Shown: positions 338 to 8,100 of the stretch, piece after piece | Position numbering within the stretch: position 1 is the stretch's first letter | How the letters are laid out: the number at the start of each line of letters is the position of its first letter | Program-made: the position numbers and the translations under genes | Source: Deltaproteobacteria bacterium | GTDB lineage: Bacteria > Desulfobacterota > DSM-4660 > Desulfatiglandales > HGW-15 | Length of the DNA: 51,124 nt | Direction of reading: 5' to 3' | Assembly (NCBI GenBank): GCA_016930835.1 | Contig: JAFGGA010000157.1 | Coordinates: 1 to 51,124 of the forward strand | Notes under the pieces: generated by a model | Databases searched by the model: none | Told to the model about the DNA's origin: nothing | The model's input: the letters and a program-made list of their open reading frames with translations, nothing else

Positions 338-547
338 CTATTTGGTTTTAAGTCTGCACTCCTGATCCCATTCGGGGCAGGCTTCTGCCATAGGGGCAGT
401 GTATTTGAGCATGCATTCACCACATTCCATTTCTATGTTGGGCACGTCGCCGTAACGCTTCTTGATTTCCTCTGCAGTAAGATGGGTAACAGAGTTGCAC
501 CCGCACTGGGGGCATGCGGTTTGAATCCGGTAACGTTTCTAGACCAT
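338..547 (-). pseudogene. small Cys-rich (zinc-ribbon-like) gene interrupted by in-frame TAG at codon 3
   Basis: On the minus strand a strong Shine-Dalgarno (AGGAGGA) precedes ATG GTC TAG; the frame then stays open for 66 codons to a TAG at 338-340. Past the TAG the protein has ACPQCGCN (about residues 11-18), MECGEC (40-45) and two further Cys (57, 64), a four-plus-cysteine metal-binding arrangement. The middle is rich in charged residues (EEIKKRYGDVPN). No ATG, GTG or TTG follows the TAG before the first Cys pair, so translation cannot easily start later. Either the gene carries a recent nonsense mutation, or the TAG is read through (for example as pyrrolysine, known in some Desulfobacterota). 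Other genes in the window use TAG as a normal stop. I do not recognise the family. Confidence 0.55.
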
Positions 548-726
548 GGCTTCCTCCTAGGCGGATCGTTGGGTAAGGTGTTAAAACACTCATTTTTGTA
601 AGGCAAGTCATTAATGTCCAAAATAAATTGAATTCGAGCTTTTTGCTTATTTAAGTGATAGTTTTTCAATGACGTACATAACAGGTTTCATTTGAGGTTT
701 CCCTTTTTATCCGGAGGTAAGAGGCC

Positions 727-2689: not shown

Positions 2690-3718
2690 TCAAGCATTCA
2701 TCTGATTGACGACCTCACGGACGTCGATATTGACCGGACATAATTGAACGCATCGGCCGCAACCCACACAACCGATCTCACCCTCACGTTTTTCCGGAAT
2801 ATATTTGAACTTATGCATAAATCGCTGCCGCACGCGTTCTTTTTTAGTCGGCCTGGGATTGTGGCCCGTTCCGTGAACCGTAAACAGCCAGCTCATGCAG
2901 GTATCCCAATTACGGACCCGCCGACCATCCGTTCCTTTGACTTCGTCTTGGATATCAAAGCAATGGCATGTGGGACAGCAAAAGGTACAGGTGCCGCAGT
3001 TGAGACAGGACTCACTCACACGATCCCAATACGGCAAATCGAAAAGTTCCAGGACCGTGCGCTTGTTCACATTGTCCATGGTCACGCCGCTGGTAATGGA
3101 AGCCTCGGAGGTCTTTTTTAGTTGAGCGGCCTTATCCTTATCAACCTTTTTGGCATCTGGGAGATCATCGATGAGGGCCTTGCCCTTATCACTGATAGGC
3201 TTGACTAGAAGGGAATCCCCTAGATCCACGAGCAATATATCTAATCCCGCTTCATGATGGGGCCCGCAACCGACGGAAGTGCAAAAACAAGTTGGGCATG
3301 GATTATTGCATGCCAGGCCCACAAGAATGGCCTTGTCTCGCTTATCGCGCCAATACACATCATTGGTCACCTCATCCTGGATGAAAATCCTGTCCAATAA
3401 TTGAAATGCCTTGGCATCACAGGGCCGGATGTTCATCAATACCCTGGACCGTTCCAATTCCGGCTCAGGATGCATGATCATGCCGCCCTCGGCCTTAGGG
3501 TCATTCTTAAAACGGGCCATGCATTCGCTCTGAGGGAAAAAGAAATCCTTGGGAGACATGGTCGTATTGGAAAACTCCCATAAAAGACCATCGGCACTGT
3601 TCGCTTCCGCCCAAATAATCTTTCCATTTTCTTCCGTTGGAGCAAAAACTTGGTATTCCTTTTTTAACGAATCAATAAAGGCGGCGACCTGGTCCTTGGA
3701 TAATATCTTGTCTGTCAT
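2690..3718 (-). CDS. FlxB/AsrA-like 4Fe-4S dicluster protein
   Basis: This 342-residue protein resembles anaerobic sulfite reductase subunit A and the Fe-S subunits of Flx complexes. The C-terminal half carries two ferredoxin-type clusters, CLNCGTCTFCCPTC and CVGCGRCVQLCP. A Cys-rich stretch near residue 125-155 (CNNPCPTCFC) suggests a further metal site. I chose the ATG at 3718 because AGGAGGTG lies 8 nt upstream; a GTG nine bases earlier sits inside that ribosome site. It should relay electrons between the flavin subunit and the MvhD/HdrA core. It lies between the flxC-like and flxA-like genes with short gaps, so co-transcription is likely. Confidence 0.82.
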   Translation of the reverse strand: MTDKILSKDQVAAFIDSLKKEYQVFAPTEENGKIIWAEANSADGLLWEFSNTTMSPKDFFFPQSECMARFKNDPKAEGGMIMHPEPELERSRVLMNIRPCDAKAFQLLDRIFIQDEVTNDVYWRDKRDKAILVGLACNNPCPTCFCTSVGCGPHHEAGLDILLVDLGDSLLVKPISDKGKALIDDLPDAKKVDKDKAAQLKKTSEASITSGVTMDNVNKRTVLELFDLPYWDRVSESCLNCGTCTFCCPTCHCFDIQDEVKGTDGRRVRNWDTCMSWLFTVHGTGHNPRPTKKERVRQRFMHKFKYIPEKREGEIGCVGCGRCVQLCPVNIDVREVVNQMNA

Positions 3719-3730
3719 ATTCGCCACCTC

Positions 3731-4702
3731 CTACTTGATAAATTCCTGAGGATCATCCGGTTTAAAAACACTCATGGGGGGTATGGATTCCAGGTCCATC
3801 CCGGGTGTGTAATCGTACATTCGGCGAATGTCCTTTTCTATTTTACTGGTTAGTCTTCGCACTTTAATGTCCATGGGACAGGCACTTTCACACGCCCCGC
3901 AATCCGTACATCGGCCCGCACAGTGAAAAGCCCTCAATATATGATATGTCGCCACATCGGCCTCATCCTGGGTCTTTCCGCACCATTGGGGCATGGTCTC
4001 ATCAACAAAGCAGACATGACAATAGCACAGCGGGCAGGCATCGCGACAGGCATAACAGCGGATACAATCCTTGTAATTATCAGCAAAGGCCTCCCAACTT
4101 TTATCGATGGAAAGCTTTTCCCAGGGCGCGGCGACATTATCGATATTACCGCCGTGGGTGGGGGCGGTTTCTTCACCGATCAGCTCATCCACGATGACCG
4201 GATTGCGCTGCACGCAAGTATAGCAATTGTTTCGCATGACCTTTTTTCTAGGGATGCGCTCCTCAAGGTCCCTTCCTTTGACCACCAGCTCAGCGCCGTC
4301 TTCCATCACTTCCGTAATAACCTTGTTAGCGCCGATCATTTGCTGGATCTTATTACGATCCAGCATGCCCGGGCTGGGAACGCCGATCACAAAGACCTGT
4401 TCACGAGTAATCTGGTTCTCTTTGATCAAACCGACAATATTGCGGCTGACGCATCCTTGTGCCACGATGGCAATTTTACCGGCCTCACCCAAGTCTCGCC
4501 TTATGAGAAAATTGGCCAGGTTATTACAGCAAAAGCTCGTCCAAATGAGTTTGTCGGCCTCTTCAGGGGTATAGGCGAAATAAGGGCGCTCACGCATAGG
4601 CACGGTCCCTTTCTCAAAACCGATCACACAACTCACCTTCCCATCAGACAACAACCTTTTGGCGACCTCTCGAATCCTTTCCGTTACAGCTTGATTTTCC
4701 AT
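3731..4702 (-). CDS. FlxC-like iron-sulfur protein (FrhB/FdhB-like N-terminus plus two ferredoxin motifs)
   Basis: The 323-residue product has an N-terminal domain with Cys residues (SFCCNNLANF, AQGCVSRN) that recalls the F420-hydrogenase/formate dehydrogenase beta-subunit fold. Further on it has NNCYTCVQRNP and two ferredoxin motifs (CIRCYACRDACPLCYC and CTDCGACESACP). Its ATG overlaps the stop of mvhD as TAATG, which implies translational coupling. In Flx-Hdr operons this position is held by a second Fe-S electron-transfer subunit. It has no CCG motif, so it is not an HdrB-type disulfide reductase. Assignment to FlxC is by context; the exact fold of the N-terminus is uncertain. Confidence 0.75.
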   Translation of the reverse strand: MENQAVTERIREVAKRLLSDGKVSCVIGFEKGTVPMRERPYFAYTPEEADKLIWTSFCCNNLANFLIRRDLGEAGKIAIVAQGCVSRNIVGLIKENQITREQVFVIGVPSPGMLDRNKIQQMIGANKVITEVMEDGAELVVKGRDLEERIPRKKVMRNNCYTCVQRNPVIVDELIGEETAPTHGGNIDNVAAPWEKLSIDKSWEAFADNYKDCIRCYACRDACPLCYCHVCFVDETMPQWCGKTQDEADVATYHILRAFHCAGRCTDCGACESACPMDIKVRRLTSKIEKDIRRMYDYTPGMDLESIPPMSVFKPDDPQEFIK

Positions 4703-5139
4703 TAGGCCACCTTCCCGATTTCCTTGATCATATGCTTGGCCGGACCCAAGGCCGTGACTGCTTCACAGACCTTAATGGCGGTTTTTTGAAATTTCTCGGC
4801 CTCGGCCGAAGAGATCCATGAAAAATGCAACCGCCCGGGCTCAATACCAATATATTCCAGGAGATTTTTTAAGACGGCGAACCGCCGTCGGGCGAACATA
4901 TTGCCTGCAATATAATGGCAATCGCCCGGGTGTCAGCCGCTGACCCAGACACCGTCCACGCCCCGCCGGAATGCCTGTAAAATAAATTTGGGGCTCATGC
5001 GACCGGTGCAGGGGATACGAATTGTCTGGATCAAAGCCGGGTACTGAAGCCGACTCACGCCGGCCAGGTCCGCCGCTCCATAAGAGCACCAATTGCAAAG
5101 AAAGGCCGCGATACGCGGTTGAAAAGTTGTTTCATTCAT
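4702..5139 (-). CDS. mvhD: MvhD/FlxD-like electron-transfer subunit, selenoprotein
   Basis: The gene is one 145-codon frame if the TGA at 4935-4933 is read as selenocysteine. The protein has CNWC (15-18), Cys44, then GVWVSG-Sec69-HPGDCHY with Cys74. In the MvhD family this motif normally reads G-C-HPGDCHY, and Sec-containing versions are known. The sequence continues without a shift into FARRRFAVLKNLLEYIGIEPGR, the conserved C-terminal part. MvhD binds a [2Fe-2S] cluster and passes electrons to HdrA. A ribosome site (AAGGA) precedes the ATG. A strong stem-loop starts 4 nt after the TGA. Annotation pipelines would split this gene into two fragments. Confidence 0.9.
4889..4928 (-). promoter_or_regulatory. 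Putative bacterial SECIS hairpin in mvhD
   Basis: Directly after the UGA the minus-strand RNA can form CGGGCGA/UCGCCCG (7 bp), continued inside by UUGCC/GGCAA, with an apical loop of about 11 nt. A stem-loop just 3-prime of the UGA, within the coding region, is the expected site for SelB binding in bacteria. The position and strength are seen in the sequence; SelB recognition is inferred. Confidence 0.6.
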
Positions 5140-5168
5140 GAGAATTCCTTATGCTAAAATAGGCTTTT

Positions 5169-8100
5169 TTACATCATGGCTTCAATCTGCGCCATCACAT
5201 CACGGGTGGTAAAACCTCTTAAATTTGGAGCCCCCGAACGACAAGACGCCACACATGTTCCGCAACCTTTGCACAGCGCCTCATTGACCACGGCTAAACC
5301 TTTTTCATTTTGATCAATGGCCTGGTAGGGACATACCGTCCAACAGACACCGCAGCCCACACACTTATTCTGATCAATAAAGGCGACCGTACCGCTGAGC
5401 CACATCTCATCTCGTGATAGGATGGTCACGGCTCGGCTTACAGCGGCCTGAGCCTGGGCGATAGATTCTTCAATGGGTTTAGGGTAATGGGCCAACCCGC
5501 ACATAAATACACCATCCGTGGCAAAATCCACCGGTCGCAATTTTTGGTGGGCTTCCAGAAACCAACCGTCATCATCCATGGACACCTTAAACATCTGGGC
5601 CAGATCCTCCGCTCTATTGCTAACCACGGCGCTGGCAAGGCCGACCACATCCGCGCTAATAAGCAAGTCACGTTTCAATATCTGATCATAGACTGTTACC
5701 TTGAGTCCGTCACCATCCACTTCTACAATGGGTTTATGATCAAGCGAAAAACGTATGAATAACACCCCTTTGGACCGGGCCTCCTTGTAAAGCAACTCCC
5801 GTTCCCCGTAGGTGCGGATATCGCGGTAAAGGATAACCACCTGACAATCAGGATTTTCCTCCTTGAAATGTATGGCCGTCTCCACGGAATGGGTGCAGCA
5901 GACCTTGGAACAGTATGGCCGTTCCGGTTCGCGGCTTCCCACACACTGGATAAATACCACGCTATTGGTGGATTTGGGATCCACCTGGCCCGTGGTAAGG
6001 GCCGCGTCCAACTCGAGATGGGTCAAAACCTTGGGATGCTGGCCATAGGCATACTCTCGGGGTTTGTACTCACTTGCGCCGGTGGCGATGATTGTCACGC
6101 CATGTTCTACACTATCTTCTTTTTCTTTTGTGGATAGGGTGGTCTTAAAATTTCCCACAAAACCATCCACATCCTTGATGGTCGTTTCCATATGAAGCTT
6201 AATAAGGGGCTCGGCTTCCACTTTGGCAATCAGTTGCTCTAGGTACGGCCCCACTGCCTCACCCTGGGCCGTAACCCTCAGTTGGCGAGCTGTGCCGCCC
6301 AAATGACTTTCTCTCTCTACCAAATGGGTCTCATAACCTTGTTTGGCCAGGGATAGGGCCGCATTCATTCCGGCCAAGCCACCGCCGATAACCATGGCTC
6401 CTGGATTGACGGACAATTGTATTTCCTGGAGCGGCTCTAAAAGTGAGACCTTGGCCACCGCCATGCGCACCAGGTCCATGGCCTTATTGGTTGCCTTCTC
6501 CGGGTTATCCGTATGGACCCAGGAGTCCTGATTGCGGATATTGGCCATCTCAAAGAGGTATTTGTTCAAGCCTGCGTTCTGCAAGGTCTCTTGAAATAAA
6601 GGTTCATGGGTACGGGGGGTACAAGCGGCCACGACGATACGGTTCAACCCCTGTGCGCGAATCACCTCGGTCAGATTATCTTGGGCATCCTGAGAGCAAG
6701 AAAATAAATTATTCTGAACATAGGTCACATAAGGTAGGCCCTTGGCATATTCAGCAACGGCCTTTACATCCACGACACCAGCAATGTTGATGCCGCAGGA
6801 GCAAACAAATACACCGACCCTGGGTATATCCCCTGTTACATCCATGGGTTTGGGTATCTCTTTTTCCTGAACCAGGGTACCTCGTGCCTCCGACAGGTTA
6901 CCCGCTGCCGCGCATGCCGCTGCGGAGGCCTCCATAACGGAAATGGGGATATCTTTTGGGCCGTTCAAGGCCCCGCACACATAGATACCCGAACGGCTGG
7001 TTGCTACAGGGGTAAATGAGCCGCTCCGGATGAATTGGTGATCACCGAGTTCCACATCCAACCTTCGGGCCAATTCCACCGTGCTATCCGATACCTCTAG
7101 CCCATGGCTGAGTACAAGCATGTCGAACTCATCGGTTTTTCTATCGCCTTGTTCCGTGGCATATTGAATCCGAATTGAGTCATCCGGGAGTAGGTCCACG
7201 GTATGGACGCGGCTACGGATAAAATGAATGCCCAGCTTCTTGGCCTTTTCATAATATCTCTCAAAATCCTTACCGAAAGTCCGCATATCCATATAATAAA
7301 TAGATACATCCAGATCATCATGGGAGTGCTCTTTGGCAATGATGGCTTCCTTGATGGCATACATACAGCATACACTTGAACAGTAAGGATGGTCACAAAT
7401 ATTCATATCGCGTGATCCCACGCACTGCAGAAACGCGATCTTCCTAGGCTCCATTTCATCCGAGGGCCTTACCAGATGGCCCATCCAGGGGCCACTGGCC
7501 GCCAAGATCCGCTCGAATTCAAGGGCAGTGACCACATTGGGGGAATTGGCATACGAATAGGTGCTATAGATGGAGGGATCAAAGGGCTGAAAACCCGCGG
7601 ACAGGATGACTGATCCGACCTTTATTTCCCGTTGGGTCTCTGATTGCTCATAGTTAATGGCGCCGGCAGGGCAAAACTTCTCACAGGCCCTGCACTTGCC
7701 TTTTAGAAAATAAAGGCAATTATCCTTATCCAAACAGTATTTTAAGGGCACCGCCTGGGCATACTGCACATGAGCAGCCTTGCGTTTATCAAGACCTTCA
7801 TTGTACTCGTTCAATACCTTTTGCGGACATTTATCAGAGCAAGCCCCACAAGCGATACATTTGTCCATATCAACGAAACGCGGATGGCTGACGACTCTGA
7901 CCGTAAAATCCCCTTCAACACCTTTAATGTCAATAACTTCCGAAAGGGTTAATAGCTCAATATTGATGTGCCGGCCGACCTCGACCAGTTTGGGAGAGAT
8001 GATTCACATTGCACAATCATTGGTGGGAAAGGTCTTGTCCAACTGGGACATGACACCACCAATGGCAGGATTTTTTTCCACCAAATAAACATAAAACCCG

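Follow-up and report, generated by a model that had tools for sequence, protein, structure and literature searches.

An early in-frame TAG in a small cysteine-rich gene from a Desulfobacterota genome is probably a recent nonsense substitution at codon 3

Does a TAG that stands two codons behind a well-placed start codon mark a broken gene, or is it read as an amino acid? The question is raised by a small gene near one end of contig JAFGGA010000157.1 of a Deltaproteobacteria bacterium (assembly GCA_016930835.1), the 51,124 nt of which were analysed as a whole and are called the window here. A sequence-only reading of the locus, which named no strand, had reported ATG GTC TAG behind a strong ribosome site, followed by 66 codons with a multi-cysteine pattern. 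Both observations hold on the minus strand (547-539 and 547-338), where AGGAGG at 558-553 is followed by ATG at 547-545, TAG at 541-539, 66 open codons with seven cysteines and a terminal TAG. The plus strand at 338-547 reads differently. The translation of 547-338 on the minus strand is MV*KRYRIQTACPQCGCNSVTHLTAEEIKKRYGDVPNIEMECGECMLKYTAPMAEACPEWDQECRLKTK*, and its cysteines form a CPQCGC cluster (CPxCGC) and a CGEC cluster (CxxC), with further cysteines at positions 53 and 60. The features of the locus are:

727-1587, divergent: dienelactone-hydrolase-family gene, 5' of the small cysteine-rich gene
553..558, minus strand: Shine-Dalgarno-like AGGAGG, five bases 5' of the ATG, read from the sequence
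545..547, minus strand: ATG start, at the place homologous to the start in most related loci
539..541, minus strand: in-frame TAG, codon 3, a sense codon in all readable homologues
338..538, minus strand: 66 open codons and the terminal TAG (340-338), encoding a small zinc-ribbon-like protein
2-262: frame cut by the contig end, 3' of the cysteine-rich gene, weakly matching the end of DUF4143 (22.4 bits, below the cut-off of 28.1)

The codon-3 TAG lies about 540 bases from a contig end, and the window has 337 bases on the 3' side of the gene. GGAG-type sites were also seen by eye, uncounted, ahead of the ATG in many homologous loci. If the TAG at codon 3 terminates translation, the cysteine-rich part is untranslated. 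The sequence-only reading erred in stating that no later start codon follows, as the frame holds a GTG at 445-443 (the first ATG, GTG or TTG after the stop) and ATGs from 430 onwards. These codons sit past the first cysteine cluster (CPxCGC) and so cannot yield the whole domain; as expected of a gene broken by a nonsense codon, no ATG, GTG or TTG lies in frame early enough for a restart that would do so.

The frame belongs to a real gene: a profile of four close sequences retrieved 61 related loci at 57-78% identity from a genome collection, which is far beyond chance. This number is a lower bound, as the scan seeks two short peptide patterns and so misses other homologues, and it may also pass over the genome that holds the window and its nearest relatives. 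The loci come from organisms labelled as Desulfobacterales-type, Deltaproteobacteria or Proteobacteria, and the two nearest homologues, both at 78%, are labelled uncultured Desulfatitalea sp. and Deltaproteobacteria bacterium. As a by-product, the loci (L105-L165) outline a patchily distributed family of small cysteine-rich proteins in Desulfobacterota-type genomes. A separate search of the own genome and 60 relatives, all from outside the window's genus, had hits at E 0.001 in 22 of the 61 genomes. Besides the window's own copy, these comprise close homologues in three genomes (65-71%) and remote ones in 18 (29-37%). A close homologue was absent from all 16 same-family genomes searched, several of them incomplete, so the gene is patchy; it may have been acquired and may be dispensable. 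Across a sample of the phylum, 34 of 395 genomes matched at E 1e-7 or better, a count that includes the own genome and both close and remote homologues.

No second copy was found in the own genome at E 0.001, and a remote relative used as query recovered nothing but the known locus and a weak match at E 0.04. None of the 18 neighbour families most widespread among the homologous loci lies beside the window copy. The commonest of them, which lies upstream of the gene in 30 of 60 loci, resembles class II fumarase; one of its members matches Pfam Lyase_1, and the finer name was given by eye. No Pfam or NCBIfam model reaches its cut-off on the window frame, and a structure prediction was of low confidence (mean pLDDT 62). 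The description as zinc-ribbon-like comes from weak matches to the Lar, Elf1 and ZPR1 models. The CPxCGC and CxxC clusters are common to these small proteins and the window frame; the likeness is weak, however, and the window frame stays under all cut-offs and has extra cysteines at 53 and 60.

The claim that the rest of the gene is under selection holds for the past. All 24 alignment columns with at least 90% agreement among the other 57 rows are kept in the window copy (58 rows in total; L118, L134, L158 and L161 of the 61 loci omitted), and nothing except the stop is therefore amiss. Against its homologue L106, the window frame has a dN of 0.106 and a dS of 1.49; dS was not computable for six of the 12 best pairs listed. 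These sequence comparisons show that purifying selection acted on the frame in the past, and are not evidence for the time since the stop arose, because the ratio averages over a long divergence (dS about 1.5). Mean identity to 18 more distant alignment rows was 0.676 for the window row, within the 0.624-0.713 of its five nearest relatives. The terminal branch of the window (0.18 against a median of 0.085) is the 11th longest of 58, which says little, as the window row has no very close relative.

The codon that the homologues carry at position 3 bears directly on the question. Position 3 was defined as the codon two before the residue that matches R5, and it was readable in 60 of the 61 loci; the other, L134, begins at a contig edge. 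The alignment that the sequence-only reading had proposed as a check gave a sense codon in 60 of 60: lysine in 29, glutamate in seven, arginine in five, glycine and asparagine in four each, aspartate, serine, alanine and threonine in two each, and glutamine, histidine and phenylalanine in one each. In 46 of these loci the ATG lies four codons before the match to R5, as in the window, and in the other 14 the nearest start is three, five, six or seven codons ahead of that match; for these, position 3 was counted from the conserved domain rather than from the start codon. No stop was found at position 3 in 21 further loci (three from genomes among the 61) or in 25 loci of another set (at least three repeated from the 21). 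Four of the 34 matching genomes of the phylum sample yielded no locus for this reading. The five neighbours of the window in the tree (L105, L106, L108, L109 and L116; support 0.71) carry GAA, GAC, CAA, GAA and GAA. One of the 60, L158, a draft genome, has a damaged N-terminus (about 4980-5040), with GPQCGC for CPQCGC and no ATG at the usual place. A homologue from an Olavius Delta 1 symbiont (L145), whose lineage we take to be a pyrrolysine user, has a plain AAA. The sense codon in relatives that a gene broken by nonsense should show is thus present throughout, and the TAG that relatives of a pyrrolysine protein should share occurs in 0/60, 0/21 and 0/25 homologous loci.

Recoding would also call for a machinery that reads UAG. 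The own genome (4.70 Mb in 224 contigs, 95.5% complete, 3.8% contamination) gave no convincing PylS, PylC, PylD or tRNA-Pyl in searches for these four of the five pyl components that the sequence-only reading had named as a check. Its best PylS match reached 37.5 bits against a cut-off of 178 for the PylS C-domain. This candidate was rejected: it is a class II synthetase of the D/K/N type, most likely EpmA, and its gene directly follows an EF-P-like gene. A second, weaker PylS-like match (22.7 bits) lies on contig C130. The PylC N-domain had no match in the own genome, in a search that also covered 14 control genomes, and the best PylD match was 22.0 bits against a cut-off of 150, like that in most other genomes searched. 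The few per cent of the genome that are missing form the main gap in this negative result, and a small one, as pyl genes often lie together.

The tRNA-Pyl with anticodon CUA, found in a relative described below, was absent from the own genome in a BLAST search with the relative's sequence (nothing up to E 1) and in a search with a gapped pattern built on the D and anticodon arms. The pattern did pick up the relative's tRNA-Pyl, and it also matched once in another genome (G046), at a place where ARAGORN finds no tRNA. An earlier pattern that allowed three mismatches was discarded as too loose, with 85 matches in the own genome and 83 in the backward control. In a tRNA census with the general Rfam model, ARAGORN read 41 of the 43 tRNA places and gave no CUA anticodon; the remaining two, at contig edges, carry GGG and CGA by eye. 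The census scored 150 of 224 candidates and is no fair test for tRNA-Pyl, because the same model missed the tRNA-Pyl of the relative. The own genome also holds two MttB-family genes (L083 and L084, both on contig C158), neither with an internal TAG; as a guess, they are perhaps glycine-betaine-type methyltransferases. One of the two seemed at first to contain a TAG, but this TAG is the stop of a 404-aa ORF, and the next ORF starts ten bases further on.

The taxonomic family of the window does hold a pyrrolysine user, the genome G005 of another genus, which served as a positive control; the window's own genome shows no such system. The relevant features of G005 are:

L199 (G005:C324), 3-437, 3373-4872 and 4973-5620 (-): PylS piece, MttB gene and corrinoid-protein gene, on one contig
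L199:3373-4872 (-): MttB gene with internal TAG, its frame open only if the TAG is read
L091:1469-1542 (-): tRNA-Pyl, anticodon CUA, found by ARAGORN, on the same contig as the PylS piece
L075 (G005:C363): PylD piece, at the end of another contig

The PylS piece, at a contig end, matched the first 53 of 242 positions with 33.5 bits, and the PylD piece matched 53 of 266 positions with 50 bits; both scores are below the whole-protein cut-offs because both are pieces. The MttB protein reached 777 bits against the pyrrolysine-type trimethylamine methyltransferase model (cut-off 525), and its frame crosses a second TAG near the end, probably the real stop. The corrinoid-protein gene reached 228 bits against a cut-off of 215. 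The tRNA-Pyl supplied the BLAST query used above, and was the sole match below E 0.1 in the 61 genomes. The detection of PylS and PylD pieces and tRNA-Pyl in G005 indicates that searches of the same kind can find a pyl system. The general Rfam tRNA model missed this tRNA-Pyl at E up to 1, and ARAGORN reported it; a tRNA census resting solely on that model would miss it.

Within the window, TAG serves as an ordinary stop. After largely overlapping ORFs were dropped, the 44 ORFs of at least 120 aa ended in TAA (21), TGA (12) and TAG (11), and the small cysteine-rich gene itself ends in TAG. Elsewhere in the window (2690-4702, minus strand), two iron-sulphur protein genes lie in one frame with a single TAG between them, and this TAG overlaps a ribosome site (AAGTAGGAGGTGGCGAATATG); if it were read as sense, the two genes would appear as a false fusion.

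We favour, with a probability of about 0.7, a recent single-base nonsense substitution at codon 3 of this small conserved gene. The sequence-only reading had judged a nonsense mutation simpler than recoding, and the sense codon in every readable homologue, together with searches of the own genome that detected no PylS, PylC, PylD or tRNA-Pyl, bears this out. Codon 3 would have been, for example, AAG, GAG or CAG, each of which is one base away from TAG. Initiation at the ATG, aided by the strong ribosome site, would be followed by one further residue and then termination; translation would end after two residues, and the cysteine-rich protein would be not or hardly made. The change would be recent, as the remainder of the gene is undamaged. 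This account takes the base to be real, to have arisen by one substitution and to terminate efficiently, with loss of the protein. However, a frame free of other damage would also fit a consensus error or read-through.

The TAG could be absent from the living organism, either as a wrong consensus base in the draft assembly or as the allele of a minority strain, which we consider unlikely. The genome is in 224 contigs, the gene lies near a contig start, its remainder is intact, and L158 is another draft genome in which the N-terminus of the gene is damaged; yet no positive sign of an error was seen. The tetranucleotide composition of the contig agrees with that of 133 kb of other pieces of the genome, some of them overlapping (correlation 0.979), and the contig is thus not plainly misbinned, although its first 8 kb, which hold the gene, agree less (0.895, with a GC content of 0.495 against 0.449). 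There is a slimmer chance that the UAG is decoded at low frequency by ordinary near-cognate tRNAs, giving a little full-length protein, and that selection keeps the frame. Such read-through would suit the strong ribosome site and the frame that is intact past the stop. In-frame stops in otherwise intact frames are described as widespread in bacteria, with low dN/dS and possibly lowered expression, in PMC7918605; the same paper describes many of them as short-lived and assumes that most are without functional recoding. The low dN/dS of the window frame is uninformative here for the reason given above, and since none of the 60 homologues has the stop, there is no sign of its being maintained. 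By the rule given in PMC1914089, conservation of an in-frame stop between species separates recoding from pseudogenes and sequencing errors; the unshared stop of the window fails this rule, which by its authors' account misses species-specific read-through. A variant in which the UAG is a kept leaky gate, read through rarely and adjusted through release-factor activity or a suppressor tRNA missing from the draft, seems to us very unlikely.

Insertion of pyrrolysine or another amino acid at the UAG, which would give a small cysteine-rich protein with a special residue 3, is highly improbable. The trait exists nearby, as G005 carries tRNA-Pyl (CUA), a TAG-containing MttB, and PylS and PylD pieces, and lysine is the commonest residue at position 3. 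Against this, the searches of the own genome for PylS, the PylC N-domain, PylD and tRNA-Pyl were negative, its MttB-family genes have no internal TAG, and no CUA anticodon was read in the tRNA census, a weak point given the model used. With 12 residue types in 60 loci, conservation at position 3 is weak, so a special residue there would have no evident role, and the presumed pyrrolysine lineage of the Olavius symbiont has AAA at this position. An in-frame TAG in a genome with a pyrrolysine user in its taxonomic family is therefore to be read with caution, as it resembles recoding, yet here the homologues and the absence of any detected pyl gene indicate a plain nonsense change.

Known pyrrolysine proteins have a TAG that is common to species and lies in the protein core, in genomes with pylTSBCD. 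The MttB, MtbB and MtmB methyltransferases, such as the MttB of G005, share with the window gene an in-frame TAG followed by conserved coding sequence; in contrast, the window TAG is unique, stands at codon 3 and is accompanied by no detected pyl gene. The marine cases in PMC8318568 agree with the pattern of known pyrrolysine proteins; that paper links the pyrrolysine of marine Deltaproteobacteria to trimethylamine methyltransferase and also describes a member of this protein family that lacks pyrrolysine. The window copy differs from known premature-stop pseudogenes in the position of its stop, at codon 3, and in the absence of a second lesion. PMC1914089 and PMC7918605 discuss how such species-specific premature-stop genes are distinguished from recoding; the window copy resembles these genes in having a stop in one genome, a sense codon in relatives and an intact remainder.
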